Position numbers and translations under genes: made by a program
Shown here: positions 4,113 to 27,640 of the stretch, one piece after another
Layout of the letters: each line of letters starts with the position of its first letter
Position numbering within the stretch: the stretch's first letter is position 1
The notes under the pieces: model-generated
Database searches by the model: none
What the model saw: only the letters and a program-made list of their open reading frames with translations
What the model was told of the DNA's origin: nothing
Origin: a virus
IMG/VR virus record: IMGVR_UViG_3300031539_000248
Coordinates: 1-27,640 of that record
DNA length: 27,640 nucleotides
Reading direction: 5' to 3' (one strand)

Positions 4113-4790
4113 CTATTCTTCCTCAACCAATTCCGGCGGTTCTTCGGCTGTTTCACCGGCAACCCACCGGGCCAAATTCTCGGTTCTCAGTTGAGGATTC
4201 ACGATCATCTCATAGACCCGACGAAGCCGATTCAACTGTTTTCCATCAGGAACAACATACCGATTATCAGGTAATATCCGTCCGTTTTTCAAATCGAGCT
4301 TAAAGCAAATCTGAGCCCTCGCACTGTGACTGGGCACGATGCAGCACCTCTGCATGACGGTTCCATCTGCAAGGGGGATATCGCGGTCAAACACATTGGC
4401 AGTAGTAATGCCTCCATTTTCGTAGTCCCGAACCGGCCTACTGTGAGAACTCTTCAGCGTGACTTTCTCTTCCCGCTCCATCTTTCCAACTTTCTTGCGG
4501 ATCGAGACTTTCACGCCGGAAGGGTCTTGTATCTCCGGTTCTTTGGGATTCATTGCCACAACATGAGTTACGTTCAATATGCCCTCACGCCCGTTTATAA
4601 CAACCTTGATCTTGCGTTCCGGGTATCCGTCAAAAGGATGCGCCGCCCGTGCTATCGCCTGCGGGACCGGCTTGAAATCATCCAGGGTAAGACCATCCAC
4701 CTTGAGCGATTCCATTTCCTGATCGAGTGTCTTTTCTTCCTTTTCTTTCACGGCTTTATCTGCCGGATCTATGAGTTTTGCGTTTGCCAT
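4113..4790 (-). CDS. hypothetical head-region protein
   Basis: The 225-aa product starts at ATG 4790 with GGGAG ahead of it. The N-terminus is charged and helical (about residues 1-45), the middle is a mixed-charge presumably beta-rich domain (about 55-180), and the C-terminus is acidic (EEPPELVEEE). No signal peptide, membrane segment or known motif is visible. It sits immediately downstream of the major capsid gene, a place often used for head-tail connection or capsid decoration proteins, which is the only clue to function. Confidence 0.75.
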   Translation of the reverse strand: MANAKLIDPADKAVKEKEEKTLDQEMESLKVDGLTLDDFKPVPQAIARAAHPFDGYPERKIKVVINGREGILNVTHVVAMNPKEPEIQDPSGVKVSIRKKVGKMEREEKVTLKSSHSRPVRDYENGGITTANVFDRDIPLADGTVMQRCCIVPSHSARAQICFKLDLKNGRILPDNRYVVPDGKQLNRLRRVYEMIVNPQLRTENLARWVAGETAEEPPELVEEE

Positions 4791-4892
4791 TTTCGTTCTC
4801 CCATCGTCCCGTTAGTCAATGAGTGGAAGGGGACCGGGAGTTATCCCTTTTCGCCTTCAGCGGCCAGCTTTCAGCTATCCACCCAAAGATCA

Positions 4893-5888
4893 TTAGTTAT
4901 TCGTTCTATAGGTGCGAATAACCACAAAGGCATTGTCGTAGGTGTTAAAAACAGCCTTGGTCATGCCATAAATCGCACCGATACAGAAACCTACCTTATT
5001 GCCATAGTCAAAGGTCTTTTCGTTCCAGACCTTCCGCTTGGCGTAGGCAATTCCCGCACATCCAACACCGAAGAAACCGGCCTCAGCACCAGCCAAAGTC
5101 GGCGGCGTGTCTGCCCCCCACGCTGTTGAAGTGGGGATTCGCTCGTGAACATGCAGGATGGTGTTGTTCCAGCGTCCGATAGCCCCGGTGAAAAGGGGAT
5201 TATCGGGACCGGGTTGCATGGCCTCTCTTTGTGCCTGTGCCCATGCAGCGTCACGCTCCTTGAGGTCGAATTCCTGATCGGGAGACATGACACAAACATA
5301 CCAGCGTCTGCCACCTGCCGGTGTTCCTATGATCTTTGGGGTTGCTTTCTTGGCATACGCTACGGCCTTGGAAATCAGGGCCAGCGTCATGTAATCGCCA
5401 GCTTCGATGGTTGCCGTGGTTGTAGCATCACCGCCATAAAGGGCCTTGGTCGGAGCCAACCAGATAGCGTCAAACATGTCCTGGTCAATGGTGTCGGCCT
5501 TCCATCTCTTGAGCAATCGCTGTGCCCATTGGCGAACTGCCTTATCCGAAGGGTACTGATCGGAGAGCTTACCGAATGTCCTGACTGCGTTCCGCTTTTG
5601 GTTGATCGTAATCGCATCGTCATAGACATTGGGGACCTCTTCGTTCCCCTCCATGATAAGATCACCGGCAACACCGGCACCACTCAGGTTCCGAACCTGC
5701 CCGAACGTGTGTTGATATCCCTGTTCTCTTTCGAGATCCGGGAACTCAACGATTATATTTGTTTCCTCACTCGCACCGATAAAGCCCTGACCGTAGAAGT
5801 AGGATTCGGTTTTGGCCTCTATCCACCACCTTTTCGCCCAGGTTTGCGCGGTGAGAGCGTCTGCGGTTGTAAAAGTCCAATCGGCCAT
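4893..5888 (-). CDS. major capsid protein, N4-gp56 family
   Basis: This 331-aa protein forms the phage shell. The start ATG 5888 follows GGAGGT. Family-typical features are an N-terminal TAQTWAKRWWIEA helix region (about residues 13-25), a FPDLEREQG segment, the GAGVAGDLIMEGNEE loop (about 70-85) where family members read GDGVAGD..LEGNEE, then AITINQKRNAVRTFGKLSDQ and a KADTIDQDMFDAIW helix. The C-terminal half contains the WYVCVMSPDQEFDLK block. The protein is full length for the family. The scaffold-like gene lies 36 bases upstream and the portal further upstream, the usual order for a head module. Confidence 0.9.
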   Translation of the reverse strand: MADWTFTTADALTAQTWAKRWWIEAKTESYFYGQGFIGASEETNIIVEFPDLEREQGYQHTFGQVRNLSGAGVAGDLIMEGNEEVPNVYDDAITINQKRNAVRTFGKLSDQYPSDKAVRQWAQRLLKRWKADTIDQDMFDAIWLAPTKALYGGDATTTATIEAGDYMTLALISKAVAYAKKATPKIIGTPAGGRRWYVCVMSPDQEFDLKERDAAWAQAQREAMQPGPDNPLFTGAIGRWNNTILHVHERIPTSTAWGADTPPTLAGAEAGFFGVGCAGIAYAKRKVWNEKTFDYGNKVGFCIGAIYGMTKAVFNTYDNAFVVIRTYRTNN

Positions 5889-5924
5889 TAGAAATACCTC
5901 CTAATCTAATGACCTTTCTTGACG

Positions 5925-6860
5925 CTAATCCCAAGCCGCTTGCGGAAACTTGTCTTTCAATTCCTTTGGAGCATCCTTGGCAAACTTTTTAAATGCCACA
6001 TCAGTTAAACCATCTATGTGTGCAGTAAGTTGGTCTACCGTGTACTCCATAAATTGCCCGTATCCTGATTTACCCTCAATGGATTTGTTCGTGGTAACGG
6101 TTTTCACCTCGCCACTTGCCAGTCCTTCAATGAGGGCCTTGGTGCTGTTCACTTGAGCAGTTTTGAGGATGTTGTCACGGTGCATGAGAAAATAGGCATC
6201 TTCCATGTTGTTAGCCCTGCCCGTTTTCCCTATCCAATCTACGATTTCATCAACAAACTGCTCCATCTGTTTGGCTTCCTTGCCGTCCAGCTTGTCCACT
6301 TCCTTGCTGAACATCTCTACAGACATCTTGGCACCAAAGGCATTAACCTCCGCTTCTGATTCTCGTTTAAGCCGCTCCTGTGTGTCCTTGGTTGTCCGTT
6401 GTGTTTCTCGCTGGTCGTCCCGATAGTCGTTATAAATCGCCATAGCAGCCAGTGGGTCAATCTCATGCACTTCTGCAAGACTTTTCCCATCATAAGGTCC
6501 ACTTTGGACGCGCAAATGAATAAGGTCAGCATATAAGTTGTCACTAATAGGGACCGGTTCCGGTTCTTCCGATTTCTCATCAGGATACTTCTCGTAATAG
6601 GCTTGGGGATCACGCCTCAAAAGGTCGAGTTTGCGTTCAAATTCCTTGCTCTTCCCGTACACCTCATTGAATCTCTCAAGTGGTACGGGTCCCTTTGGTT
6701 CTGGCTCTGGCTCTGGTTCCCCAGGCTCAGGAATAGGCTCTGGTTCTGGCTCGGGTTCCGGAACTCCCGGTTCCGGTTCCGGCTCTGGTTTTCCAGGTTC
6801 CGGTTCAGGCTCTTCGCCTAATATCTTCAGTTCTTCTTCCGTGAATTCTTCATCTCCCAT
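5925..6860 (-). CDS. putative scaffolding protein with acidic proline-glutamate N-terminus
   Basis: The 311-aa protein starts at ATG 6860 (AAAGGAG upstream). Residues about 16-58 are a low-complexity run of PEPEPE units, encoded by repeated GGTTCC/GGCTCT-type codons on the plus strand. The rest is highly charged and mostly helical with predicted coiled-coil character (about 60-230), then a helical C-terminus ending in KDKFPQAAWD. Composition, length and position directly before the major capsid gene match phage scaffolding proteins, which diverge too much for a motif match. Assignment is by context and composition, not homology. Confidence 0.7.
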   Translation of the reverse strand: MGDEEFTEEELKILGEEPEPEPGKPEPEPEPGVPEPEPEPEPIPEPGEPEPEPEPKGPVPLERFNEVYGKSKEFERKLDLLRRDPQAYYEKYPDEKSEEPEPVPISDNLYADLIHLRVQSGPYDGKSLAEVHEIDPLAAMAIYNDYRDDQRETQRTTKDTQERLKRESEAEVNAFGAKMSVEMFSKEVDKLDGKEAKQMEQFVDEIVDWIGKTGRANNMEDAYFLMHRDNILKTAQVNSTKALIEGLASGEVKTVTTNKSIEGKSGYGQFMEYTVDQLTAHIDGLTDVAFKKFAKDAPKELKDKFPQAAWD

Positions 6861-7164: not shown

Positions 7165-9084
7165 TCATTTTTTTAGTGTTCCCGCCTGAAGCATTGCTTC
7201 TTCTCTCTTCTTCATACGGGCAGCTATTTTGTCCTTGTTGGGATCATCCACATATTCAAGTGCGGCCTCGGCATCGTAGATGCCAGCGCCCACGTATTCG
7301 ATTGCCACCTGCATCTTTGCTATCCGGTTGGTGGGCAGGGAACTTCCAGCCGTGAGTTTCACATCAAGGTCGATGAGCTTGATTCCAGGGGGTTTCTTTG
7401 CATCGGCGGGCCGTATCTTCTCAAGCGCGTCCTCCCACTTCTGCCGAATCTGCGCCTGCATATCCTCATCAGGTTCCTCCATATCCTCGCCCAGCTTGGT
7501 CTTTTCCTCATCCGGCATCCATTTGGTCCACTCATCCTCTTCAAGAAGGCGCTCCCACATGTACCGGGGCCATTTTGCCAGAACCATGGCGATATCGACT
7601 TTCCCAACCCGTATAAGCGCAGCTTCCAGGGTCCGGAGAAAGGGCTTGCTCATCATGCCGCCCATGTCCTGAAGGGCCAGGACTACCCGCCCGGAGGGGT
7701 CTGTTCCCTGTGGTATCTTCCCCCTCATTACGTCCTGAAGGTCGTACATATCGTTGATGTCGGCCTCGGATAGTTGTCGGATCTCAAGAAACTTGTTCGC
7801 ATCAATAGAACCTGCTCCCAGGCGTGAAGGAGCAAAAGCAGCCTGATTGCTGACAAGCAATTCAGAACCCGGTGTTCCCGGTTCCCCTACCCACATTGAC
7901 GCGCTCTTAGGTCTGACAATGGGGGAGTTGGCGAGGTGCGCCACCGCATGAGCAAATTGCAGGGTGGACTTGTTGAGTTGCCGGTTGATATCCTTGGCGT
8001 AGGCCGTGGGACTCATGGGGTAGGAACTGCGGGTTCTTTGTGCCCGGAGTGCAATTATAGGCAGAACAGGATTGCCGTCAGCATCCATGCCGTGAGGGTT
8101 TTCTTTCTCCTCAATGAGTTTCTTGCCGATAATGAAACGATGGATTCTCTTTTCGAGCTTTCGGGGCCAGTAGACAGCATCCCCTACCGCATCACCGGCC
8201 TTGAGGTTCTTTTTCTGATCCTTGCTAAGTTTAATAGGCTGGGCTATAGGCAGACCCTTCTCGTTTGAGATAACTACCCAATCCTCATTAACCACCTTCC
8301 GCATATAGGCATCGATTTCCCAAATGTTCTCGGGTTCTGCCGTGGCATCCCCTTGGTCGTCTACCTTGTCCTTGCCCTCTGGATAGTTGTCTTTCCCGGT
8401 TACACCGCTTGACTTGTCTCCGGTTTCGTCCTTGAGCTCTATCTTGAAGTTCAGATCATCATCCGTGATGATGTCGCCGTACTGTTCCTTGAGGTAGGGC
8501 TTTGAACGGAGTTTTGCTTCTATGATATGGGTATCTGAGAGGTCGCGTTGCCGTGCGTTTCTATCCCAGTAAAAATCATCGGGGGGGGCTTCCTCGAACA
8601 CAATCCGGCCAAACGGACCTTTCGAGGGGTTGTGCGATACCTTGATAAAGGAGATCCCGCCCACCTGTGTTTCTTCCACGGCATCATAGGTAACATCGTT
8701 ACCCTCGTTCTTTGTCCATACGAGGTCGTGGGCACGTTTCAGGAGTTCGGCAATGTAAAGGTCGGAACTACCAACCGGAAAGAACTTGATTTCAGGCTTT
8801 TGGTCCGTAACGATTGCGGCCTTGCCTTGGACACCCTTGACGCATTTGTTGGTGACAACGGGTTCTTGTTTCTGCTTCCTAATTTCCTCAAGTTCCTGTG
8901 CCGTCCACCAGGATTCCCGGTCATTCTCGATGATGCCCCAACATATCTTGCGGCGTTCTATCCATTTCCCGCGTTCCGTATCTTCCTTGTAGATTTTAAG
9001 ATAGGAGTAGACCTCGAGTATCTTCTTGGCATCGGGCTTATCTCCGAGTACCGCTTCTAATCGTTTCAGGTCGATGGTTTCCAT
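7165..9084 (-). CDS. portal protein, P22-like
   Basis: The 639-aa protein should form the dodecameric ring through which DNA is packaged. The N-terminal region (about residues 25-110) contains the W.ERRKICWGIIENDRESWW segment, then a KGVQGKAAIVTDQKPEIKFFPVG stretch typical of P22-type portals, where nearby residues read N....V.N..G..RQ.....I...P. The EEAPPDDFYWDRNAR motif near 175 corresponds to the conserved 'dP..f.wDp.a' block. The C-terminus is a charged helix. Its position, downstream of terminase and upstream of scaffold and capsid, agrees. The start ATG 9084 is preceded by AAAGG. It is full length. Confidence 0.85.
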   Translation of the reverse strand: METIDLKRLEAVLGDKPDAKKILEVYSYLKIYKEDTERGKWIERRKICWGIIENDRESWWTAQELEEIRKQKQEPVVTNKCVKGVQGKAAIVTDQKPEIKFFPVGSSDLYIAELLKRAHDLVWTKNEGNDVTYDAVEETQVGGISFIKVSHNPSKGPFGRIVFEEAPPDDFYWDRNARQRDLSDTHIIEAKLRSKPYLKEQYGDIITDDDLNFKIELKDETGDKSSGVTGKDNYPEGKDKVDDQGDATAEPENIWEIDAYMRKVVNEDWVVISNEKGLPIAQPIKLSKDQKKNLKAGDAVGDAVYWPRKLEKRIHRFIIGKKLIEEKENPHGMDADGNPVLPIIALRAQRTRSSYPMSPTAYAKDINRQLNKSTLQFAHAVAHLANSPIVRPKSASMWVGEPGTPGSELLVSNQAAFAPSRLGAGSIDANKFLEIRQLSEADINDMYDLQDVMRGKIPQGTDPSGRVVLALQDMGGMMSKPFLRTLEAALIRVGKVDIAMVLAKWPRYMWERLLEEDEWTKWMPDEEKTKLGEDMEEPDEDMQAQIRQKWEDALEKIRPADAKKPPGIKLIDLDVKLTAGSSLPTNRIAKMQVAIEYVGAGIYDAEAALEYVDDPNKDKIAARMKKREEAMLQAGTLKK

Positions 9085-10017: not shown

Positions 10018-11630
10018 CAATATTTCCCCTCCTGCCATTTCCTGAGCCATCCTTGTGGCTTTTCCGGCACCTGTACCGCCTTATCTCCTATAAACTGGCT
10101 TGCCTGTACCGCACATCCGCCACCTATCACACAATCGTCAAACTTGCCTTCCTCTGCCCCCAGCCTGCCGCTCTCATCACGGATAAACGTGGAGCACTCG
10201 CCAATGAGTATCGCATCATACAAGGTGCCCTTCATCTGCCGGAGCCAGGTCTTGAAATCTCCGCACAACTCATGTTTGCTTTGCTGTGTTTCAGACCATC
10301 CTATTTCCTTGGTGGGACCACCTATCTTTGCGGGTATCATCTTGAAATAGAGGTTTGCTTCGAGCTTTTCCAAGCGCTTGCAGGTGGTAATCCCTGCGCC
10401 TGTACGTTCCGGGCATATCAGGGCGTTACCATCTGCGTTGTTGTAATACTGTGAGAGCATAAAGAGCATTTCGCCCCACTGGTCAGCATCTATTCTGTTT
10501 GACCGCATCCGGGCCACAACCTCGTCAATCTTCCGATCGATCACATATCCTGTACTGTAGGTCTCCCCCAGACCTTCTGAAACATCGGCGCCGACACAAT
10601 ACCGATTCTCCCAGTATCTACCATCCCAGCCACCTATCATGTGATAGGGATAGCGCCATATTTCCAGGATTCCCCGCTTATCAGCGATAAACTCTATTTC
10701 CTTGTGCTTGTTAAGCTCAAGATGCCCCCGATTGCCCTCCATCGTAAACGTATGCCGAGCCAGCACCTTTCCGAAATAACTGCCAAGCATAGTGCTAATA
10801 GCTTCCTGTTCGGTAGCGGGATAGTGTTCAGATATCTCCTCATCGTCCGTACCTCCATCCCTTTGCTGCTTGATAAACTCAGGGATCTTCTCTTTCAGGT
10901 CCTCGTCATAGACGAGCTTTGTAGAGCGTAACGGGTGATCAGACCAGGGCATGAAGATACGTTCAAAGTCGTTGGCACCGTTCATGCTTCCAGAGTAAAT
11001 CTCACGGGTCCAGAACCATCCCGGAGCTGTCTTGATGCTGTTTGAGATAACGATAATCCGGCCCTGGGCAGAGTCAACACCGGGCTTTGATGCCGAGTAA
11101 ATCTCTTTCACGTACCGATTCCAGCACGTTTCATCGAGCACCAGGAGGTTGAGCGTCTTTGACTGTGCTCCTGAAGGCGTGGTTGCTATGCTCTGAATGA
11201 TGGATTCAAGGCCGTTGCTATGTGAAAACACGACCTCTTCATTAGTAGATTTGCGTATGGGAGGATAAAGCCATTCGGGAAGAGCATTGAGCATAAACTT
11301 GATTCTCGCCGTCACTTCCCAGGCGATTTGTTCCTTATAGCTGATAATAACGATGAGCTGCAGAGGTTTGGTCATTGCAAGCCATAGGCAGTAAGCAGCC
11401 GTGAGCCACGTAAGCCCTAGTTGTCGAGCTTTAAGGATGATAAGGCGCTTTGATCCGACTACCTTCGGCATGATCCGCTCTTGTGATTGCCATAGTTTGA
11501 AGGGTATGGCCTGGCTCGTGATCTTATCTTCGATCCAGCAATACTCACCCACGAAGTAGGGAAAGGATTCACACACCTTCTCAGACTCTCTAACTTGCTC
11601 CTGAAATATGTCTATGGCTTCACTTTGCAT
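10017..11630 (-). CDS. terL: terminase large subunit (packaging ATPase and nuclease)
   Basis: The 537-aa protein powers DNA packaging and cuts concatemers. The ATPase half shows a Walker A-like KARQLGLTW (residues about 67-75) and Walker B LLVLDE (162-167), followed by a coupling SNSIK motif near 196-200. The nuclease half shows GADVSEG (first catalytic Asp 349), CPERTGAG and the late acidic EGKFDDCVIGG motif. The start ATG 11630 overlaps the preceding stop as TAATG; a TTG two codons upstream is possible but less likely. It lacks a good ribosome site, so translational coupling to the upstream gene is likely. It is full length. Confidence 0.93.
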   Translation of the reverse strand: MQSEAIDIFQEQVRESEKVCESFPYFVGEYCWIEDKITSQAIPFKLWQSQERIMPKVVGSKRLIILKARQLGLTWLTAAYCLWLAMTKPLQLIVIISYKEQIAWEVTARIKFMLNALPEWLYPPIRKSTNEEVVFSHSNGLESIIQSIATTPSGAQSKTLNLLVLDETCWNRYVKEIYSASKPGVDSAQGRIIVISNSIKTAPGWFWTREIYSGSMNGANDFERIFMPWSDHPLRSTKLVYDEDLKEKIPEFIKQQRDGGTDDEEISEHYPATEQEAISTMLGSYFGKVLARHTFTMEGNRGHLELNKHKEIEFIADKRGILEIWRYPYHMIGGWDGRYWENRYCVGADVSEGLGETYSTGYVIDRKIDEVVARMRSNRIDADQWGEMLFMLSQYYNNADGNALICPERTGAGITTCKRLEKLEANLYFKMIPAKIGGPTKEIGWSETQQSKHELCGDFKTWLRQMKGTLYDAILIGECSTFIRDESGRLGAEEGKFDDCVIGGGCAVQASQFIGDKAVQVPEKPQGWLRKWQEGKY

Positions 11631-12154
11631 TAGCAATGATATTCACTTTCATCTACCTTGCTTAATGTAACTCGGAAATAATGGTTACTATCTTCTAGGG
11701 CAAGGTGAATAACTCCGTCTTCCATTTCAACAAATCCTTCACCATTAGTTAAACTCTCTTCATCAATTACTCCTTCGATTAATATAAGCAAATGTCTTTT
11801 AATCTCATCCTCAGTCATTTTTTTTCCTTTCTTCTTCGGCTTCTTCTTGGCTTCCTGCCGTGCCTCTACCACCAGGGCCATAGCATTAGGCAACCTGAGC
11901 TCACCTTCAAATTTCTCTGCTGGATAGTCACCCCGGAGCTTATGTGCATCCATACGGGCTTTTTGACGAATGTTCCATGCTGTAAGATCATCGGAGTAAA
12001 TAACACCCAGTGCATTTGAAAATACCTTTGTTTCGCAGGCATCAAGTTCTGCTTCGAGCTTGTCCAAAAGCCGGTTGATGCCGATCCGCTTCTTGATGGT
12101 AGTCGGTCCATCAGCTTCCTGCTCCATGTCCTCTTTTGTGACTTTGCGGGTCAT
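11630..12154 (-). CDS. putative terminase small subunit
   Basis: This 174-aa protein is encoded directly before terminase large subunit, with a one-base TAATG overlap. The N-terminal 90 residues are helical and contain LLDKLEAELDACE, then WNIRQKARMDAHKLRGDYPAEKFEGE, which resembles the oligomerisation part of small terminases, whose helices often end in 'KL.GDY..EK'. A lysine-rich linker (KKKPKKKGKK, about residues 104-113) leads to an acidic C-terminal domain. No clear N-terminal helix-turn-helix is visible. The assignment rests mainly on position; the ATG (12154) overlaps the upstream stop as ATGA. Confidence 0.55.
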   Translation of the reverse strand: MTRKVTKEDMEQEADGPTTIKKRIGINRLLDKLEAELDACETKVFSNALGVIYSDDLTAWNIRQKARMDAHKLRGDYPAEKFEGELRLPNAMALVVEARQEAKKKPKKKGKKMTEDEIKRHLLILIEGVIDEESLTNGEGFVEMEDGVIHLALEDSNHYFRVTLSKVDESEYHC

Positions 12155-12879
12155 TCTATCCTATCCACCAGGCCCCATTCCATGCCTTGTTGAGCAGAAA
12201 ACCATGTGGTTTTTGCTTCCATTGCTTCCCATTGCTCACGGGAGAGTTTGCTATTTTCAGTCAATGTGTCCATGTACCGATCCCTAAGCAAATCCATGAG
12301 TTTCCCTTGAGAAATAATATCGGAATGTGTTTCCCTTCCCGGCCACTTCCAGATTGATGTCTCGTGAACCATAAATATTGTACTGGGGGCGGTAATACGC
12401 TTATTGCAAACAGCGAATATGGGTACAGCAGCACTGGCAACGATACCGGAGGCATGACCTATCACGGTAAAGCCTAATACCTTTGCACGTTTGATCTCAT
12501 CGGCAAGAGCAAGCCCGGAAAAGGCATCACCGCCAGGAGAATTGATAAAAAGTTGAATCGTGCGAATATCTGTGGTTTTCTCCAAAATAGTAATATCACT
12601 CCAGATATTCATAACATCGACAACAGTAAGGGCAGACCATAACTTGATAAATACCTCTCCATCACATTTGAATGACAAAGCAGAAAGCACACCTTCCTGG
12701 TTTTGAATTTGCATGGTCCGGTTGATCTTGTCGCCTTCATCTTCCTTGGCAACCTCCACCGGCTGATCGACGGCCTTGACGGTCAAGATTATCTCCTGTG
12801 GAGGAGCCTGGACACTCTTGGTTGTTGCAAGGCAGCCTGTTAGAAGCAAGGCCAACCCTATAATCGTTACATATCTCAT
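12151..12879 (-). CDS. ClpP-like serine protease with lipoprotein signal
   Basis: The 242-aa protein has a lipoprotein signal (MRYVTIIGLALLLTGC, lipid-modified Cys16). Residues about 70-240 form a ClpP/crotonase-fold protease domain: the FINSPGGDAFSG oxyanion region (111-122), GIVASAAVPIFAV with catalytic Ser149, and IFMVHE with catalytic His172. Phage head-maturation ClpP proteases have the same motifs but no export signal. It is locked into the late operon by ATGA overlaps with the methyltransferase before it and the TerS-like gene after it. It may be an envelope-anchored protease acting on host surface proteins, or a capsid protease that acquired a signal. Fold assignment is strong, role uncertain. 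Confidence 0.8.
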   Translation of the reverse strand: MRYVTIIGLALLLTGCLATTKSVQAPPQEIILTVKAVDQPVEVAKEDEGDKINRTMQIQNQEGVLSALSFKCDGEVFIKLWSALTVVDVMNIWSDITILEKTTDIRTIQLFINSPGGDAFSGLALADEIKRAKVLGFTVIGHASGIVASAAVPIFAVCNKRITAPSTIFMVHETSIWKWPGRETHSDIISQGKLMDLLRDRYMDTLTENSKLSREQWEAMEAKTTWFSAQQGMEWGLVDRIE

Positions 12880-13361
12880 TTCCTATACCTCCCCATCAAA
12901 TAAGTTCCTGTGAGCGGAGGCCATGATTTCTTTGCCTCACAGGTGAAATACTCCTGTAATGCCTCATGAATCTCTTTGCCGGTGTGATAGTGATCCGCTG
13001 GCTTGTGCAATCTAAACAGTTTCCGGCCCAGGTTGTAGAGCCAATCTTCGCTTGGGGAGAGACATAGGAGCTGACCTCCTGGTTTCAGGACACGGTGAAG
13101 CTGATACACTGCCATGCCCAAGTTCTTGATGTGCTCCAGGGTAGATGAGGCCCAGACCACATCAAATCTATTTGCATCAAAAGGCACATAAGCAGGCCAT
13201 CTTGATTGTCCTTTGCGAATTTCTATATTTTCAAAGCCATATTTCATTCTCAGTTGATTTGCGGCCTTGGTATAGATATCAAAAGCCACCACAGAGCTGA
13301 AGTGCTCTGCCAGGGTAGGCAGCATCACGCCGTTTCCACAACCGAAGTCAAGGATGTTCAT
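12876..13361 (-). CDS. class I SAM-dependent methyltransferase (short)
   Basis: The 161-aa protein starts almost at motif I (ILDFGCGNG, residues 3-11). A FDVVWASSTLEH motif and RVLKPGGQLLCLSP follow, as in Methyltransf_11 enzymes. It is shorter than most because it lacks the usual N-terminal helices. A longer frame upstream overlaps the preceding small gene and has no support, so I chose ATG 13361. It overlaps the lipoprotein gene by ATGA. Substrate is unknown; neighbours suggest a sugar, lipid or surface molecule. Confidence 0.78.
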   Translation of the reverse strand: MNILDFGCGNGVMLPTLAEHFSSVVAFDIYTKAANQLRMKYGFENIEIRKGQSRWPAYVPFDANRFDVVWASSTLEHIKNLGMAVYQLHRVLKPGGQLLCLSPSEDWLYNLGRKLFRLHKPADHYHTGKEIHEALQEYFTCEAKKSWPPLTGTYLMGRYRK

Positions 13362-13363
13362 AG

Positions 13364-13483
13364 CTAATCCAAAAAATAGCCAACAAGTAGCATTAAAACA
13401 ACTGCTAAAAACAGTGGGCCCACAGCAATGACGAAACACATTATGACATCCTTTATCGAAACAGGGGTAGTGTCTAAATCCAT
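13364..13483 (-). CDS. 39-aa single-span membrane protein
   Basis: The frame starts at ATG 13483 with AGGAAAAC upstream and ends two bases before the methyltransferase start. A short polar N-terminus (MDLDTTPVSIKD) precedes one long hydrophobic helix that fills the rest. It overlaps the previous gene by ten bases. It may be a holin-like or regulatory membrane peptide, but a single span and small size do not allow a call. Confidence 0.5.
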   Translation of the reverse strand: MDLDTTPVSIKDVIMCFVIAVGPLFLAVVLMLLVGYFLD

Positions 13484-13797
13484 TTTTGTTTTCCTATTTC
13501 TAAAAGCCTCCACAACGCCCTCAACTTGCCCCATTGCAGCCACCTCATCAACCAGCCCCCGGTATGATACAGAGGCGTATCCACGTAGCCCTTGGCACAC
13601 TCCTTCAAGACATTGGCTGGGACTCTGACGACCTTCTTGGGGGGGCACCCGGAGGGTAAGAGCGCCTTGAGCCCCAGCCATGCCTCGCCATATCGCCCGG
13701 AGGAGAGCGCCATGAGAACTGTTTGCTCTTTGGTGATCACGATACGAACGAAGATCACGAGGAGAAAGGTTGCTATGAGTGAGGGCCAGTTTTTCAT
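13474..13797 (-). CDS. 107-aa membrane-anchored protein
   Basis: ATG 13797 overlaps the preceding TGA as ATGA. Residues about 6-22 are a hydrophobic anchor (SLIATFLLVIFVRIVI), followed by a basic, probably cytoplasmic or periplasmic domain rich in Leu, Trp and Lys. Two Cys residues are present. No family is recognised. It is the middle of three consecutive small membrane genes placed between radical SAM and methyltransferase genes. Confidence 0.55.
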   Translation of the reverse strand: MKNWPSLIATFLLVIFVRIVITKEQTVLMALSSGRYGEAWLGLKALLPSGCPPKKVVRVPANVLKECAKGYVDTPLYHTGGWLMRWLQWGKLRALWRLLEIGKQKWI

Positions 13798-13952
13798 TTT
13801 TGAATAAGTGTCATTCCAATACCCATACACACAAATGCTGCAACAATTACAAAAAGGGCGATAACTGCTCCCCATTCTTTCATGCTAATTAGAAATATCA
13901 AGAACACAAATAAAGGTGTTGGAACAAGACAGTAACCAATTATTTTTTTCAC
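13794..13952 (-). CDS. 52-aa two-span membrane protein, GTG start
   Basis: GTG 13952 overlaps the radical SAM stop as GTGA, which is why I reject a longer frame. The peptide has two hydrophobic helices (about residues 4-21 and 26-47) with a short KEWG loop. Small two-helix membrane proteins next to others of the kind can be class II holin-like, but no endolysin is found nearby, so this remains open. Confidence 0.52.
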   Translation of the reverse strand: MKKIIGYCLVPTPLFVFLIFLISMKEWGAVIALFVIVAAFVCMGIGMTLIQK

Positions 13953-15310
13953 GCCCACCTCGTCTTTGCTACCACCCAGGCACCCTTGAAACCCTGCCAC
14001 AGTTGCCTGAGAGAGCGCACCTTGGCAAGATAGGACCATACACGACTTGGCCGGAGATATACCCTGCGGTATGCTTCTTTTTGGAGGGCTTTCATTTCGG
14101 CTTGGGTACGTGCTTTTGGAAAATAAGCGAGAGGTCCTTTACCCCATCCTCCATGCGTTCTAAAATCTGCCCAATTACCCGATATTCTTCCGGGTTCATT
14201 CTCAAGACACCATTGATATAAAGAACTTCCAGGGAATGGCACACAGATTGTGAACTGTGACCAACCCGCTTTAAGCTGTCTAGCAAATTGAATCGTGGCA
14301 TCTGATTCCTCCCGTGTCTCCGTAGGTATCCCCAGCATAAAGAATGCCCGTACATTGATACCTACCTTCTTGGTTATTGCAAATGTCTCCCGTACTTGCT
14401 CTAACGTGATACCCTTCTTGATGAAGTCCAAGAGCCTCTGGGTTCCTGTCTCCACTCCATAACTTATCTGCCAGCAGCCGGCCTGCTTCATGTACCGCAG
14501 CATATTCTCATCTACCGTATCCACCCGGCTCTCGCATGTCCATGAAATACGGTGATTAAGACCGCTGCTAATAAGAGCATCACACAAGCCATACATCCAC
14601 TTATGATTGACCGTAATGGTATCAGCTTCCAGATTGATTTCCTTTGCATCGTAGTCCCTCACAAGGAGCTCTATCTCTTGAATTACCCGATCAACTGAGT
14701 GAAACCGCACCTTGCGGCCATGCAACCGGCAGCAGAAGGCGCACTCGAATGGACAGCCTCGAGCCACTATCACAGTATAAGCGTGATGCCCTTTGTTGCG
14801 CGAGGCCGTGATCTGGTACTGCTTCATGGGGAGGAGGTGGCGGGCGGGGAGGGGGAGATCATCAAGATTCTTAACGGGAAATGTATGAGCGATCGTACCT
14901 GAAGGCATATCCCAAATATCTGTTCTTTCACCTTCACCAGCTACGATATAATCCGCTTCTGGAATGTCTTTTGCCGTCTCCTCAGGCATCACAGTAGGAT
15001 GAGGACCGCCGAGGATGATAGGAATGTCATGGAAAATGGTGCTATGCTCAGACTTCAGAGCAATGCACATTTCTTTGACGACCTGGTATGAAGGGGTATT
15101 CATGGTAATTCCAATAAGCTCGGCCTCTGGTGCCCATGGTGTGCGCCTCTCCACCTGCCCATCCCATATCCTCACCTCATGCCCTGCCTGCTCGAGAGCC
15201 CCCGCCACATAAGCCAATCCCAGGGGCTCAGAGCATGGTCCGAACTGCGCCAGGTCCTTGCCATAGCGTTGCTCTGCGGTTAGGGGTGGGTTAATGAGGA
15301 GGATTTTCAT
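13949..15310 (-). CDS. B12-binding-type radical SAM enzyme
   Basis: The 453-aa protein starts at MKILLINPP, the typical opening of the cobalamin-binding Rossmann domain (about 1-140), which contains IILGGPHPTVMPEE and YIVAGEGE. A classical DxHxxG cobalamin motif is not evident. A DDLPLPARHLLP linker leads to the radical SAM barrel with the cluster motif CPFECAFC (Cys186, 190, 193), then EINLEADTIT, CESRVD, YGVETGTQRLL and MLGIPTETREE. The family includes methylases and ring-forming enzymes often found in lipid, hopanoid or polysaccharide clusters. ATG 15310 is preferred over a start 12 codons upstream because homologues begin at this motif. The substrate is unknown. Confidence 0.88.
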   Translation of the reverse strand: MKILLINPPLTAEQRYGKDLAQFGPCSEPLGLAYVAGALEQAGHEVRIWDGQVERRTPWAPEAELIGITMNTPSYQVVKEMCIALKSEHSTIFHDIPIILGGPHPTVMPEETAKDIPEADYIVAGEGERTDIWDMPSGTIAHTFPVKNLDDLPLPARHLLPMKQYQITASRNKGHHAYTVIVARGCPFECAFCCRLHGRKVRFHSVDRVIQEIELLVRDYDAKEINLEADTITVNHKWMYGLCDALISSGLNHRISWTCESRVDTVDENMLRYMKQAGCWQISYGVETGTQRLLDFIKKGITLEQVRETFAITKKVGINVRAFFMLGIPTETREESDATIQFARQLKAGWSQFTICVPFPGSSLYQWCLENEPGRISGNWADFRTHGGWGKGPLAYFPKARTQAEMKALQKEAYRRVYLRPSRVWSYLAKVRSLRQLWQGFKGAWVVAKTRWA

Positions 15311-23643: not shown

Positions 23644-23816
23644 ACCTAATCGAATTCATCAAAGTCGAATGCTATGAGTGTGAAGAATTTATAAAAGTAC
23701 CTTTTGATATCCTCAGAAGTCGCACCGAATATGGCAAGTGCGACTGTGGGGAAGGGGTACAGGTGCATTATCATGCTGGGGTTTTGCGAATTGAACGATT
23801 ACCGGAGGAACCATGA
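23640..23816 (+). CDS. 58-aa zinc-ribbon-like protein
   Basis: ATG 23640 and the TGA at 23814-23816 both lie in ATGA overlaps with the neighbouring genes. ECYECEEF and GKCDCGEG give four cysteines for a metal site. Short length and context suggest an early accessory protein. Confidence 0.65.
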   Translation: MNLIEFIKVECYECEEFIKVPFDILRSRTEYGKCDCGEGVQVHYHAGVLRIERLPEEP

Positions 23817-24622
23817 AAGCAATTCATCAATCCAGTTTAGGCATGGCTTTTCGTTGCGGGGAACAGTTTCGGCGCCGATATCTTGAAAAAGAAATTATCC
23901 CCCCTGGCATAGCTGCAGGACGGGGCACCGGCGTTCATGCTGCGAGCAAGGTAAATCTCTTGCAAAAACTCAAAAGTCAAAAGGATATGCCTTTGTCTGA
24001 TATTCAAGATGCTACGCGGGACGGTTACGTGAAGGCTTTTAAAAACGGGGTTTATCTCGCAAAAGAAGATCAACCGGCCAAAGATAAACTCTTGAATGAA
24101 GGGCTCGAAGATGCTCTCCGTTGCTCTAAAGTTTATCTTGAAGCCGTTGCTCCTCAGATAAACCCGATAGCGATAGAGGAACCTTTTCATATTGAAGTGC
24201 CTGGCATCGAATTACCTCTTGAGGGCACAATGGATTATCAGGAAAAGCCGAAAGTGGGGGACCTCAAAACCACATCTATGAAATGGCCTGAAGGCAGAAT
24301 CAATGGAGAGATCCAACCTGTCTTTTATTGCTTTTCTCATGAATCGACAACAAATGTCAGACCGGAATTTGTCTATCATATTCTGATAGCGAGAAGAGGC
24401 AAAGACGGCCCGACCTCAGAGGAATTGCAAGAACAGAAATTGACCCCTACGGATGCTCATTATTATGCGCTTTTCGCCAAGATCAGGATGTTTGAAACCA
24501 TGCTCAACAAAGGCGTATTCCCGCCAGCCAACCCTACGGCCTGGTGGTGTGATCCAAAGTGGTGCGGATACTTTTATACGTGTCCGTATGTTGGCAATAA
24601 TTCATCTAAACAATGGGTATAG
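23813..24622 (+). CDS. RecB/Cas4-like PD-(D/E)XK exonuclease with Fe-S cysteines
   Basis: The 269-aa protein carries the PDDEXK_1 exonuclease motifs: GRGTGVHAA with His42, LEGTMDY with Asp141, VGDLKTT with Asp150 and Lys152, and a QPVFYCF motif around 168-174. Cys15 at the N-terminus and Cys246, Cys251 and Cys257 at the C-terminus match the AddB/Cas4 arrangement that holds a 4Fe-4S cluster. It probably resects phage DNA ends for recombination. ATG 23813 has CGGAGGAACC before it. The next gene is a putative annealing protein, the usual partner. Confidence 0.82.
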   Translation: MKAIHQSSLGMAFRCGEQFRRRYLEKEIIPPGIAAGRGTGVHAASKVNLLQKLKSQKDMPLSDIQDATRDGYVKAFKNGVYLAKEDQPAKDKLLNEGLEDALRCSKVYLEAVAPQINPIAIEEPFHIEVPGIELPLEGTMDYQEKPKVGDLKTTSMKWPEGRINGEIQPVFYCFSHESTTNVRPEFVYHILIARRGKDGPTSEELQEQKLTPTDAHYYALFAKIRMFETMLNKGVFPPANPTAWWCDPKWCGYFYTCPYVGNNSSKQWV

Positions 24623-24632
24623 GGAGGAAATC

Positions 24633-25736
24633 ATGGAAGAAATAAGAGCGTTATCACCGGAAATTTTAGAAGGCATCAAACCGTTCAGTGGCGATCCCAC
24701 AGAGATGTTGCCTGCTGAAAGATTACTTCGCAATGGCTTTACATTGCAGAAGGTAGGAACTCAATATGCAACGGCTGTCGCCGTGCAGAAAAGGCGCTCT
24801 CTGCCAACCGTTGTGAGCAACGTTCTGGAAGAAGCGGAATTGGCAGGAGAAGCCTTTTATTATGGCTGGAACGTTACCACCAAACAAGGGAAACGCTGGA
24901 TTCAGGGAGGTTCCATTTCTCTTGCTACCAGTATCGCCCGGAACTGGGGGAACTCGGTTGTGGATGCTGACCTCGTGGAAGAAACGCCAACACATCATAT
25001 CCTCAAGGGATATTTCATTGACCTTGAAACGGGCGTTACTTTCGGGAGACCATTTCGCCAACGAAAACAGCCAAACATCGGTATGGGTGATGATATTGAC
25101 CGGAAAGAAGATATCTCCTTTCAAATCGGCCTGAGCAAGGCTTCACGCAATGCTATATTTGAGGGCGTTCCCCGCTGGCTTGTAGATAGGGCCATTGACA
25201 GAGCACAACAAGCCGTTAAGAAGGGACTGGGGGAAAACTTGGAGATTGCCCGAGCCGAAGCGATTAAGTATTTCAAGCGTTACGGCGTAGGCCAAGAACG
25301 CATAGAAAATGCCTTGGGAACACCTGCCGATAACTGGACTCCTGAACACTTGGTAGAACTCAAAGGCATGGCAACAGCTTTGAAAGAGGGCCGGGTTACT
25401 ACCGATGAACTTTTTCCGAAAGATGTAGGACCCACAGCGCCCCCACCTAAAGAAAAACAGAAGAGAACAAGGAAAACCAAGGCTACCCCACCCCTAAAGG
25501 CAGAAGATGCAGCCACGGGGCAGGATGCTCTTCCTGGGGGGGATTCTGAGGATGAAACGGAGGGTGAAAGCGGAGAAGAAGAAAAGTATCCCGTAAAATG
25601 CACCAATGAGGAGGTTGCAGCGGATCGCGTATATCTTGCTTACTGTGAGGATCGGTGTCGATATAAGGAAAATGCAGACGGTTCGGTGTGCGAGGATTAT
25701 CTGAGCTACGTGGAGAGCTTGGCAGGGAAAGAATGA
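24633..25736 (+). CDS. putative single-strand annealing protein (RecT-like)
   Basis: The 367-aa form starts at ATG 24633 behind GGGAGGAAATC; an upstream in-frame extension overlaps the exonuclease and is rejected. Residues about 85-210 contain GSISLATSIARNWGN, then HILKGYFIDLETGVTFGRPF and FQIGLSKASRNAIFEGVP, a pattern I associate with RecT-like phage proteins. The later part has a lysine-rich linker, an acidic run (DSEDETEGESGEEE) and a C-terminal segment with Cys residues. Pairing with an exonuclease upstream supports the call, but the homology is from memory and should be confirmed. Confidence 0.6.
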   Translation: MEEIRALSPEILEGIKPFSGDPTEMLPAERLLRNGFTLQKVGTQYATAVAVQKRRSLPTVVSNVLEEAELAGEAFYYGWNVTTKQGKRWIQGGSISLATSIARNWGNSVVDADLVEETPTHHILKGYFIDLETGVTFGRPFRQRKQPNIGMGDDIDRKEDISFQIGLSKASRNAIFEGVPRWLVDRAIDRAQQAVKKGLGENLEIARAEAIKYFKRYGVGQERIENALGTPADNWTPEHLVELKGMATALKEGRVTTDELFPKDVGPTAPPPKEKQKRTRKTKATPPLKAEDAATGQDALPGGDSEDETEGESGEEEKYPVKCTNEEVAADRVYLAYCEDRCRYKENADGSVCEDYLSYVESLAGKE

Positions 25737-25876
25737 TCTGGCCCGATGAAACCATAGCCTACTGTCCCTCTCCTATCTGTCATTGGCAAGGCCCGGAGTG
25801 CGACACCGAAATGCACGATGGCTCTGACAGGTGCCCTGATTGTGGGGAAGAGATAGAGAAGGAGATAGAACAATAG
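25733..25876 (+). CDS. 47-aa zinc-ribbon protein
   Basis: ATG 25733 overlaps the previous stop as ATGA. Cys10, Cys15 (YCPSPICHW), Cys22, Cys33 and Cys36 (RCPDCGEE) give a zinc-ribbon pattern. It is the last gene before the cassette array. Confidence 0.65.
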   Translation: MIWPDETIAYCPSPICHWQGPECDTEMHDGSDRCPDCGEEIEKEIEQ

Positions 25877-25877
25877 A

Positions 25878-25910
25878 TGGAAAATTTTCCACGTATGCAG
25901 GCTGTTAGGA
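25878..25910 (+). other. cassette-array entry point: palindrome plus GTTAGGA, attI-like
   Basis: TGGAAAATTTTCCA (25878-25891) is a perfect 14-bp palindrome. Thirteen bases later GTTAGGA (25904-25910) fits the GTTRRRY core cut in integron recombination, and everything up to 27174 downstream is cassette-like. This could be a primary insertion point analogous to attI. It lacks an adjacent integrase, so the role is inferred. Confidence 0.4.
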
Positions 25911-25918
25911 GGTGCTTT

Positions 25919-26098
25919 ATGAAAATACGATTTATAGTCGAAATAGATGCTGGCGAATATACATTTATCATAGATACCGATAGTTTGCCAACCAGTGTGG
26001 GGTGTAGGCAAGTCGCATTAAAGAATTTTGAGATAATAGAACCGGATGCACCCCTAACAATCCAATCAACCAGACCGCATAAGCGGCAGGTTATCTAG
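25919..26098 (+). CDS. cassette 1 ORF, 59-aa hypothetical protein
   Basis: ATG 25919 follows TTAGGAGGTGC, where the ribosome site overlaps the cassette's first bases. The peptide opens with two strands (MKIRFIVEIDAGEYTFIID) and looks like a small beta-rich domain; its tail (TRPHKRQVI) is read from attC1 and the TAG stop lies in that site. Function unknown. Confidence 0.7.
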   Translation: MKIRFIVEIDAGEYTFIIDTDSLPTSVGCRQVALKNFEIIEPDAPLTIQSTRPHKRQVI

Positions 26099-26107
26099 GC
26101 GTTAGCC
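26052..26107 (+). repeat. attC1
   Basis: Left box CCCTAAC (26052-26058) and right box GTTAGCC (26101-26107) flank an imperfect hairpin: AAC, CAG, extrahelical A (26074), CCGC, loop ATAA, GCGG, CAG, GTT. The total is 56 bp, the short class of attC. Confidence 0.8.
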
Positions 26108-26110
26108 GCT

Positions 26111-26290
26111 ATGAAAAAAATAATTATTACTATTGATTGGACATGCCCCGAATGTGGCATAGAAATTGTCGATGATCATATTCTTTTAGAGAATGGCTGG
26201 GGTGTTTTTGTGTGCCCGATATGCAATTATCAGGTTTATAGAACAGCGGCTAACAAGAGCATTCATCCGACCTGCTCCGCAGGCGGCTGA
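26111..26290 (+). CDS. cassette 2 ORF, 59-aa zinc-ribbon protein
   Basis: The frame starts nine bases into the cassette at ATG 26111, with almost no leader and no clear ribosome site. Cys12, Cys15 (TCPECG) and Cys35, Cys38 (VCPICN) make a zinc ribbon. The last residues and TGA are encoded in attC2. It may bind nucleic acid; function unknown. Confidence 0.65.
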   Translation: MKKIIITIDWTCPECGIEIVDDHILLENGWGVFVCPICNYQVYRTAANKSIHPTCSAGG

Positions 26291-26304
26291 TAACAGCGTT
26301 CGTT
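26248..26304 (+). repeat. attC2
   Basis: GGCTAAC (26248-26254) and GTTCGTT (26298-26304) flank CCG, extrahelical A (26270), CCTGC, loop TCC, GCAGG, CGG. The stem is perfect except for the extruded A. The left box complements the start of cassette 2 over ten bases. Confidence 0.85.
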
Positions 26305-26320
26305 TTCTAGGAGGTGAAAA

Positions 26321-26500
26321 ATGCAACCAGAACAATTTAGGCAATTAAGGGAAGACTTGCAGGCGTATGTAATTGAAATAAGCACTAAATTAGAGCAAAT
26401 CCGATGCGGGATTATTGATGTTGAGAATGAGATCATCAAGGGCAATAAAGCCGAAAACGAACAAGGTCAATCCAGCCGACCCGATAAGACAGGCGGCTGA
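26321..26500 (+). CDS. cassette 3 ORF, 59-aa helical protein
   Basis: ATG 26321 follows TAGGAGGTGAAAA. The peptide is one long amphipathic helix (about 3-45, FRQLREDLQAYVIEIS and on), likely a coiled coil, then a polar tail ending TGG read from attC3. No known family. Confidence 0.7.
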   Translation: MQPEQFRQLREDLQAYVIEISTKLEQIRCGIIDVENEIIKGNKAENEQGQSSRPDKTGG

Positions 26501-26514
26501 TAACAGCGTTAGAT
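26456..26514 (+). repeat. attC3
   Basis: AACGAAC (26456-26462) and GTTAGAT (26508-26514) flank CAGCCG, extrahelical A (26479), CC, a ten-base loop, GG, CGGCTG. The left box plus three more bases are complementary to the start of cassette 3 (ten bases in all). Confidence 0.84.
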
Positions 26515-26533
26515 TGACATTTAAGGAGGAAAC

Positions 26534-26752
26534 ATGACTGTAACTGCCTGTATTGATCTGAATATTGATTGTGATTTCTGCGATAACAGAATAAGCCGAA
26601 CTATTGTTGATAAAGGAAGCAACCTTGATACTGTTTTCTTGGCACGTTTTCACAGCAGAAATCATGGGTGGGATGTTAGAGATGGTGATGATATATGCCC
26701 TAAATGTCAATCTAACAACGCAATTCAACCGACCGCCAAGGGCGGCGGCTGA
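26534..26752 (+). CDS. cassette 4 ORF, 72-aa zinc-ribbon protein
   Basis: ATG 26534 follows AAGGAGGAAAC. CDFC and CPKC (about residues 13-16 and 55-58) form a two-knuckle zinc site around a strand-rich middle. The C-terminus (AKGGG) and the TGA are encoded by attC4. Function unknown. Confidence 0.72.
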   Translation: MTVTACIDLNIDCDFCDNRISRTIVDKGSNLDTVFLARFHSRNHGWDVRDGDDICPKCQSNNAIQPTAKGGG

Positions 26753-26766
26753 TCGTAGCGTTGGGC
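26710..26766 (+). repeat. attC4
   Basis: ATCTAAC (26710-26716) and GTTGGGC (26760-26766) flank CCG, extrahelical A (26732), CCGCC, loop AAG, GGCGG, CGG. The left flank complements the cassette 4 start over 16 consecutive bases, the longest in the array. Confidence 0.86.
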
Positions 26767-26787
26767 ATTTTTAATAAGGAGGTATCT

Positions 26788-26958
26788 ATGAAATTTAAAT
26801 GTATCAAATGTGGTTGGCAAGGCGAACATACAGAAATTAATTCTTGGGCACCTCATGATGGACCCTTTTGCCCTATTTGTGGGGCGGGATGTCCTCATCT
26901 TACGAGTGAAAATGCCCAACAAGCAAATCCAGCCGACCAGGATAAGCCTGGCGGCTGA
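26788..26958 (+). CDS. cassette 5 ORF, 56-aa zinc-ribbon protein
   Basis: ATG 26788 follows AAGGAGGTATCT; an in-frame TTG at the cassette boundary is less likely. CIKCGW (Cys5, Cys8) and CPICGAGC (Cys28, Cys31, Cys35) form a probable zinc ribbon. The tail DKPGG and TGA come from attC5. Function unknown. Confidence 0.7.
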   Translation: MKFKCIKCGWQGEHTEINSWAPHDGPFCPICGAGCPHLTSENAQQANPADQDKPGG

Positions 26959-26977
26959 TAACAGCGTCAGGTTAGCC
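26914..26977 (+). repeat. attC5, with a five-base extra at its right junction
   Basis: GCCCAAC (26914-26920) starts the site. CAGCCG, extrahelical A (26936), CCAGG, loop, CCTGG, CGGCTG form an 11-bp stem. The right box at the usual distance would be GTCAGGT (26966), but the box matching cassette 6 is GTTAGCC (26971-26977), five bases further on. Confidence 0.78.
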
Positions 26978-26997
26978 GCTAAAACAAAGGAGAACTT

Positions 26998-27150
26998 ATG
27001 GATATTATAGACATACTCAAAACCCAGGCCAAGGAAATAGCCGATCAAGATATTCCCGGCTGGGGCAATACTATGTTGTGGGCCGCTGAAGAAATTGAAA
27101 AACTACGCCAAGAAGCGGCTAACAATCCCATAAACTCTGACCGGGCATAG
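26998..27150 (+). CDS. cassette 6 ORF, 50-aa acidic helical protein
   Basis: ATG 26998 follows AAAGGAGAACTT. The peptide is mostly helical (IIDILKTQAKEIAD and EEIEKLRQEAAN) with a central GWGN turn. Its TAG stop lies inside attC6. No family recognised. Confidence 0.66.
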   Translation: MDIIDILKTQAKEIADQDIPGWGNTMLWAAEEIEKLRQEAANNPINSDRA

Positions 27151-27176
27151 CCCGGCAGGTTATCTCGGCGTCAGGA
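27117..27176 (+). repeat. attC6, right end of the array
   Basis: GGCTAAC (27117-27123) and GTCAGGA (27170-27176) flank AAC, extra T, CTG, extrahelical A (27140), CCGGGC, loop ATA, GCCCGG, CAG, GTT. The left box complements the cassette 6 start over ten bases. The right box has GTC instead of GTT. Confidence 0.8.
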
Positions 27177-27242
27177 ATAACTATGTTGACCGCCACCCCC
27201 CAAATAGATATGCTTTCCCTTGAACCTACAGGGAGGCTATCC

Positions 27243-27640
27243 ATGCCAGCTTACATCGATGGGAGGGGGTATATCCGCGTTACGGTGCCGGGATTCGACA
27301 AGACATTGACTTCCTGGCGGGGGCAGCGGCTCAAGGATTTACCGTCTGAAGATATCCAAAAGCTCTGCGATTATTTTAATCAGGCTATGATGCTGGGCAA
27401 CTATGAGGCCGTCAAAACCTGGTTCCCCGGGGAGCGAGCGAAGCACCTCGTCAAAAAACTTGCCTACAAATGGCTTGAGGCTGAGAACAAAAAGGATTCT
27501 ACCATCGCCATCGAACAGCGGGATCTCGAAACGTATATCCTGCCACAGATCGGAGATATGGCAATCCAGGAAGTCACAAGACAAGACTTCTATTGGATTC
27601 GGGAAAGGTGGGGTGACATTCACATGGCCCGGAGGATACG
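27243..27640 (+). CDS. int: phage tyrosine integrase, N-terminal part, cut by window edge
   Basis: ATG 27243 has GGGAGG seven bases upstream; an in-frame ATG at 27183 without a ribosome site is the alternative. Residues 1-80 form an arm-binding-type N-terminal region (YIDGRGYIRVTVPGFDK, then KLCDYFNQAMMLGNY). The core-binding domain then begins: LAYKWLEAENKKDS, DLETYILPQIGDMAIQEVT and FYWIRERWG. The catalytic domain lies beyond the edge. The extra arm domain points to a prophage integrase, not an integron IntI, which starts at the core-binding domain. It would insert the phage into the host chromosome. Confidence 0.85.
   Translation, partial: MPAYIDGRGYIRVTVPGFDKTLTSWRGQRLKDLPSEDIQKLCDYFNQAMMLGNYEAVKTWFPGERAKHLVKKLAYKWLEAENKKDSTIAIEQRDLETYILPQIGDMAIQEVTRQDFYWIRERWGDIHMARRI

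Follow-up and report, generated by a model that had tools for sequence, protein, structure and literature searches.

An array of small integron-type cassettes beside the integrase gene of a presumed temperate tailed phage

Integron-type cassette arrays have already been described in phages. For a screen of 10,705 phage genomes, Qi et al. (2023; PMC9892861) report 17 CALINs (clusters of attC sites lacking integron integrase), found in temperate as well as in virulent phages, together with 3 complete integrons and one In0, and they record that the integron integrase IntI1 recombined five of the six phage attC sites that were tried. According to Loot et al. (2024), as cited in PMC12901181 and PMC12444791, IntI can place cassettes outside integrons, at attG sites, and titles listed among the references of PMC12444791 describe bacterial integrons as libraries of anti-phage genes. 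Here, we analyze the IMG/VR virus record IMGVR_UViG_3300031539_000248, whose entire sequence of 27,640 bp is referred to as the window in the following. It carries six cassettes at 25904-27170, each about 200 bp long, containing one small open reading frame (ORF) and closed by an attC site; they are flanked by a phrog_3657 gene and a small zinc-ribbon-like ORF on one side and by a phage integrase gene on the other. A preliminary description, made from the sequence alone, had recognized this array and knew of no well-described phage with one. The 17 phage CALINs speak against the latter view, and since such elements and their recombination by IntI1 were published in 2023 (PMC9892861), the kind is already known.

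The attC sites were located with two covariance models, which took the place of an attC finder that had caught 3 of the 6 window sites at score 13. Seven attC sites, taken from class 1 and Shewanella plasmid integrons, went into model R1; model R2 was built on 111 matches that R1 gave across 35 viral loci. Neither the window nor its relative G001 (introduced below) was among the sources. R1 is independent; R2 is not wholly so, because the patterns used to find its viral loci had been modelled in part on the window. As positive controls, R2 recovered class 1 and Vibrio integron sites as well as three sites each in phage records TJE1 and MW202573. In the window, the sites span 26052-27176 and all lie in the same orientation:

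26052-26107, plus strand: attC site 1 (R1 25.1 bits, E 1e-4; R2 37.8 bits, E 1.9e-7)
26248-26304, plus strand: attC site 2 (R1 11.8 bits, E 0.7; R2 26.8 bits, E 1.2e-4)
26456-26514, plus strand: attC site 3 (R1 19.3 bits, E 0.0049; R2 28.1 bits, E 5.7e-5)
26710-26766, plus strand: attC site 4 (R1 19.3 bits, E 0.0049; R2 31.2 bits, E 9.5e-6)
26914-26972, plus strand: attC site 5, R' box GTCAGG (R1 21 bits, E 0.0016; R2 25.6 bits, E 2.6e-4)
27117-27176, plus strand: attC site 6, R' box GTCAGG (R1 9.7 bits, E 2.9; R2 17.1 bits, E 0.037)

These are the six best R2 matches in the window (E 1.9e-7 to 0.037), followed by the reverse strand of site 4 (E 0.15), and four of them (sites 1, 3, 4 and 5) are also found by R1 at E <= 0.005. 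A lack of attC-model matches, which would have spoken against the preliminary description, was not observed with either model, and its six attC-like sites in one orientation, each closing a tiny single-gene cassette, are borne out. Used as DNA queries, sites 2 and 4 gave no match among phage records, and site 4 gave none among plasmid records.

Measured against the attC consensus (RYYYAAC / GTTRRRY), the R'' box carries AAC in all six sites and the R' box carries GTT in sites 1-4; the earlier claim that both boxes match attC needs correcting for R' at sites 5 and 6, which read GTCAGG. The cut point of site 5 is separated by 5 nt from the start that matches the R'' end of cassette 6, and the TCAGG at the junctions of both sites 5 and 6 may be due to chance or may be a trace of the entry of cassette 6. 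When the six bottom strands are folded as DNA, the same T is unpaired in every one of them, as it is in aadA1 and aadB (judged by eye from the dot-brackets), which agrees with the single extruded base described earlier at the same place in all six sites. The z-scores of these folds range from -2.1 to -5.2. Among the minimum-energy folds, only that of site 4 has its outer R boxes paired; the centroid structure of site 1 pairs them as well, and so do both class 1 controls. Unpaired outer boxes are to be expected where R' belongs to the next cassette, but the hairpin is nevertheless a weaker one.

The cassettes can be recognized as separate units by their ends. We define the own-end run as the uninterrupted Watson-Crick pairing of a cassette's first bases with its own R'' end:

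25904-26100, plus strand: cassette 1 with ORF 25919-26098, beginning at a bare G^TT (25904) with no attC ahead; own-end run 6
26101-26297, plus strand: cassette 2 with ORF 26111-26290 (zinc-ribbon-like, sub-threshold); own-end run 10
26298-26507, plus strand: cassette 3 with ORF 26321-26500; own-end run 10
26508-26759, plus strand: cassette 4 with ORF 26534-26752 (zinc-ribbon-like, sub-threshold); own-end run 16
26760-26970, plus strand: cassette 5 with ORF 26788-26958; own-end run 12
26971-27170, plus strand: cassette 6 with ORF 26998-27150; own-end run 10

These runs of 6-16 have a mean of 10.7, compared with 3-5 for pairs across cassettes, except for cassettes 2 and 6, which have common ends (10). 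In a permutation test, the observed sum of runs was reached by 2 of 720 pairings, one of which is the observed pairing itself, so the outer boxes do differ between sites while covarying within a cassette, as had been proposed. When GTT/GTC...AACAA pairs were sought across the whole window, at distances of 60-900 nt and with a run of at least 8 required, five were obtained, namely cassettes 2-6; 200 dinucleotide shuffles gave a mean of 0.41 and a maximum of 2. Known integrons show comparable runs (4-11 in a Vibrio phage integron, n=7; 8-9 in plasmids, n=3; 4-12 in genome loci, n=9; values from an incomplete automatic cassette table), which makes end matching an integron property and places the window at the high end. 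All six ORFs are open, and each has its stop inside the attC of its own cassette. A purine-rich ribosome-binding site precedes five of the six starts, that of cassette 2 being the exception (by eye), and the Pfam zinc-ribbon matches of the cassette proteins all fall under the Pfam cut-offs.

The array sits in a genome with the gene content of a phage. By PHROG matches, the minus strand of the window encodes a terminase (phrog_2, E 8e-24), a portal (phrog_156, E 2e-31), a major head protein (phrog_334, E 4e-53) and a head protease. Terminase, portal, major head protein and phage integrase together mark the source, as predicted from its genes alone, as a temperate tailed phage. A second record, IMG/VR 3300031565_000118 (G003; 40,853 bp), is 99.99-100% identical to window positions 1-22207, and the remaining part of the tyrosine integrase that is cut by the window end sits at its far end. 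From this split integrase and the near-identity, we infer that both records stem from one phage of ~46 kb, of which they cover all but ~80 nt. The neighbours of the array are as follows:

23813-24622, plus strand: gene for an exonuclease-like protein, upstream of the array (phrog_69 exonuclease, E 6.8e-10; without a match in Pfam)
24633-25736, plus strand: phrog_3657 gene (E 1.5e-42; family function not assigned), probably part of a recombination module
25736-25876, plus strand: small zinc-ribbon-like ORF ahead of the array (sub-threshold Pfam zinc-ribbon matches)
27186-27214, plus strand: promoter-like TTGACC-17-TATGCT ahead of the integrase gene (pattern scan)
27243-27640, plus strand: phage tyrosine integrase, N-terminal part, cut by the contig end (PF14659, E 6.1e-5; 52% identity to the G001 integrase)

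The preliminary description had spoken of phage recombination genes on this flank. This is supported for the 23813 protein with its match to an exonuclease family, but not for the 24633 protein, whose family has no assigned function; the latter is 27% identical to a Gordonia phage Mutzi protein annotated as ssDNA binding protein. The promoter-like site before the integrase gene is not significant by itself, given 9 such sites in the region where 6.9 are expected, and the pattern scan found no plus-strand promoter-like site inside the array. Elsewhere in the window, the adjacent minus-strand genes at 1288-2310 and 2358-3350 appear to be paralogues, with 66% nucleotide identity over ~850 nt (seen via G003); for the former, PHROG gave no match at E 0.001. 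Rfam, run over the whole window, yielded nothing at gathering scores.

Two further phages allow the locus to be compared, as distant phages rather than as strains. G001 (IMG/VR 3300008516_001099, locus L057; 19,554 bp), which comes from another metagenome, has different cassettes between a phrog_10048 gene and an integrase gene whose product is 51-52% identical to that of the window phage: the integrase part in the window shares 52% identity with its start, and the part in G003 shares 51% with its residues 160-345. R1 places attC sites of G001 at 7116, 9443, 6721, 6905, 1761 and 6134 (E 1.7e-6 to 0.18), and R2 at E <= 0.05 places them at 9443, 7116, 1761, 6721 and 6299, missing 6905 and 6134. 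The ends of one cassette are complementary over 17 nt, and the cassette ORFs are small and zinc-finger- and helix-turn-helix-like (by eye, with one weak Pfam match). The same locus with different cassette content, for which the preliminary description had suggested searching related phages, is thus found in G001. G005 (IMG/VR 3300017991_000238) is a closer relative, with 71-80% nucleotide identity to the window in most aligned pieces. The C-terminal part of the 24633 protein has a homologue there, which is followed by small ORFs, one of them similar to that at 25736-25876 in the window (by eye), and by the apparent start of another integrase (also by eye); neither R1 nor R2 finds an attC match in G005 at E <= 1. 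Taken together, the corresponding place holds six cassettes in the window, other cassettes in G001 and none in G005.

G001 has several further features of its own. Directly ahead of its first cassette, three tandem repeats of ~25 nt at 5900-5971, each ending in a GTTAGG core, may represent an insertion site (by eye). A tRNA sequence lies inside a cassette at 6227-6297 (Rfam RF00005, 32.9 bits, gathering 29), for which ARAGORN made no call, and directly after the integrase gene ARAGORN calls a tRNA-Gly gene (8412-8487), as at many phage attachment sites. At 10554-14258, a diversity-generating retroelement encodes a reverse transcriptase (phrog_1423, E 1.6e-100; RVT_1, E 9e-16); its 60-nt template/variable pair (12064-12123 / 12643-12702) has 14 of 14 mismatches at template A, the script having retained only pairs with at least 80% of mismatches there.

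Other searches for relatives returned little. With the 24633 protein, none were found among viral contigs; with the integrase, only G001 was found; and with an alignment of both integrases, G001 and one 26%-identical record. Strain variants, sought by an exact 23-mer beside the array, were not found in a search that may leave out near-identical records. The array might also be an assembly chimera, in which similar attC repeats fused a bacterial cassette array to a phage contig. The sites have stretches of up to 33 nt in common, and no second contig of the same phage was found to span the array; against this, there are phage genes on both flanks, with the integrase cut at the contig end being completed by G003, and G001, from a different metagenome, has an array in the same arrangement. 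We therefore regard a chimera as very improbable.

The search for an integron integrase covered the window and G003, and thereby nearly the whole phage, with ~80 nt between the records unseen. TIGR02249, the model for integron integrases, has no match in the window and none over the cut-off in G003, G005 or G001. In G003, the only PF00589 match is the C-terminal half of the phage integrase; the window, in which the catalytic part of this protein is truncated, gives none. The full-length G001 integrase scores 25 bits against a cut-off of 265 for integron integrases and lacks a segment common to three of them; judged from this relative, the phage integrase is not an IntI. No attI was seen by eye before 25904, where no attI model was run. 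The array is a CALIN: it has attC sites and cassettes, and the IntI of its own that a complete integron requires was not found. That integron-type cassettes are carried by this phage, as first described, is upheld by the attC models and the end matching, with no IntI found in the window or G003, and any movement of the cassettes would accordingly need the IntI of a host. As a side observation, the protein encoded at 4680-5678 in Virus Rctr41k (KX853513; L038), a phage of DAMO/AAA enrichment origin, is 38.9% identical to a Shewanella integron integrase; R2 finds no attC match in this record.

Hairpins between small genes beside an integrase gene, as the sites are, could also be phage repeats or terminators that have nothing to do with integrons, or they could be substrates of the integrase that the phage itself encodes. 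This is difficult to reconcile with the matches to the attC models, the cassette-wise matching of ends and the extrahelical T; moreover, terminator-like patterns are not above chance (3 found, 3.8 expected), and the G001 integrase is, as its score indicates, not of the IntI type. We consider this explanation highly unlikely.

To see how widespread such arrays are, a generic attC pattern was searched in IMG/VR, giving 47 stretches in 45 records, of which 8 had no model match and were dropped; a second pattern gave 16 stretches, many of them not attC by eye. We kept 42 records: 40 with a model match, G001 included, and two (L205, L206) with the pattern only. Four pairs of kept records are apparent duplicates (L058/L081, L083/L089, L086/L088 and L202/L207). 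Phage genes were confirmed in all six records examined (G001, without a terminase seen, as well as G032, G045, G046, G054 and G058), and the viral status of the remaining ones rests on their classing in IMG/VR. The 40 records with a model match, some of them near-duplicates, suggest that arrays occur beyond this one phage. An integron integrase above the cut-off is found in just 1 of the 42 attC-bearing records: IMG/VR 2834908352_000001 (G059; L093, L095), with 489.5 bits at 47278-48222 and many attC matches, which may be a provirus call that takes in host integron DNA. A site in G046 resembles window site 2, with 91% identity over 57 nt, and its 7.3-kb locus has no other DNA match of more than 60 nt to the window. 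A search for the host by attC type did not single one out: it matched 86 stretches across many phyla, and many of these are not attC, since R2 found a match in just 33 of the 80 loci examined.

The cassettes of the window are also short. Median attC spacing is 204 bp in the window (n=5) and 197.5 in G001 (n=4, a set that includes weak sites such as 6134 with R1 E 0.18), compared with medians of 375 for the other viral records (n=66) and 723.5 for the genome loci (n=34), counting only spacings < 2,000 bp, with viral sites taken by R1 and genome sites by R2, and with some spacings lengthened by missed sites. Mann-Whitney tests gave p 7e-6 for the window versus genomes and p 4e-5 for the other viral records versus genomes. 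Duplicates L081, L086, L089 and L207 and the IntI-bearing record (L093, L095) were left out.

We think it likely that the array is a CALIN in a temperate tailed phage, whose cassettes are recombined by IntI supplied by the host and read through from the upstream phage operon. The anatomy of the sites, the separate cassette units, the failure to find an IntI in the two records that cover nearly all of the phage, the other cassettes in G001 and the lack of an array in G005 are direct observations; the host IntI, an attG-like entry, stepwise growth, read-through expression and any gene function are inferred. The single-stranded attC bottom strand would fold into a hairpin with an extrahelical T, and host IntI, acting in trans, would recombine this strand at G^TT or G^TC. 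An ordinary G^TT in the phage sequence may have served as an attG-like entry site for the first cassette, and later ones would have joined at attC sites; the array begins at a bare G^TT without a preceding attC, as insertion at attG would give. The cassette genes would be transcribed by read-through, which is likely because all ORFs point the same way as the upstream phage genes.

Several observations weigh against this proposal. R1 puts sites 2 (11.8 bits, E 0.7) and 6 (9.7 bits, E 2.9) among chance matches, and site 6 is weak with R2 as well (E 0.037). Sites 5 and 6 carry GTCAGG rather than GTTRRRY. The own-end match of cassette 1 is short (6 bp), and over the first 12 bases this cassette pairs slightly better with the R'' of cassettes 2 and 6 (8) than with its own (7), although the total of this 12-base count is still reached by just 1 of 720 pairings. 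The comparison with G001 involves a distant phage, in which some sites seem to have decayed. Without strain variants, gain or loss of cassettes is not seen directly, and the data are metagenomic contigs.

Some of these points would equally suit a fossil fragment, i.e. a ready-made piece of a host integron that was gained in one event of homologous or illegitimate recombination and has been inert since. No IntI was found in the phage, sites 5 and 6 have GTCAGG boxes and G001 has decayed sites, and such a capture is proposed for some phages by Qi et al. (PMC9892861). A fragment of this kind does not readily explain why a G^TT marks the exact start of the array, with a first cassette that matches its own end, why all six ORFs are open, why a second phage carries other cassettes at the corresponding place, or why the cassettes are far shorter than in the compared genome loci. 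On balance, we consider it unlikely, and favour cassettes that host IntI could recombine. A bolder and rather doubtful extension is that recombination genes and integrase enclose a docking place, which some temperate phages fill with mini-cassettes taken from host integrons. Host IntI would then supply and swap small phage proteins (zinc-ribbon, helix-turn-helix-like, perhaps anti-defence), and the cassettes would form a population of the phages' own, shortened for packaging and exchanged with bacterial integrons. Phages with exchangeable cassettes could spread anti-phage genes or turn the same currency on their hosts, and the window phage and G001 offer a place for a direct test of cassette turnover in phages.

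Among known systems, sedentary chromosomal and class 1 integrons share with the window the attC architecture, the complementary cassette ends and the ORFs running into attC. Unlike them, the window has no IntI or attI that we could find (attI by eye only), and its cassettes are about a third as long. Insertion at attG sites (Loot et al., 2024, as cited in PMC12901181 and PMC12444791) would account for a first cassette at G^TT without attI; it is described there for bacterial genomes, and the phage is a candidate only. We found no further paper devoted to phage CALINs in the literature, in a search with subscription journals and preprints mostly outside its coverage. The closest counterparts are the phage CALINs of PMC9892861, e.g. 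those of Tetrasphaera phage TJE1 (HQ225832) and MW202573, where, as the accessible part describes them, phage genomes likewise carry attC sites and small cassettes but no IntI; in TJE1, the cassettes face one way, as in the window. Compared with that account, the window is distinguished by six cassettes of ~200 bp beside the integrase of a presumed temperate phage, and by the counterpart in G001, which carries a different set. The present analysis adds the position next to a phage integrase, a second phage whose corresponding place has other cassettes, and the very small cassette size.

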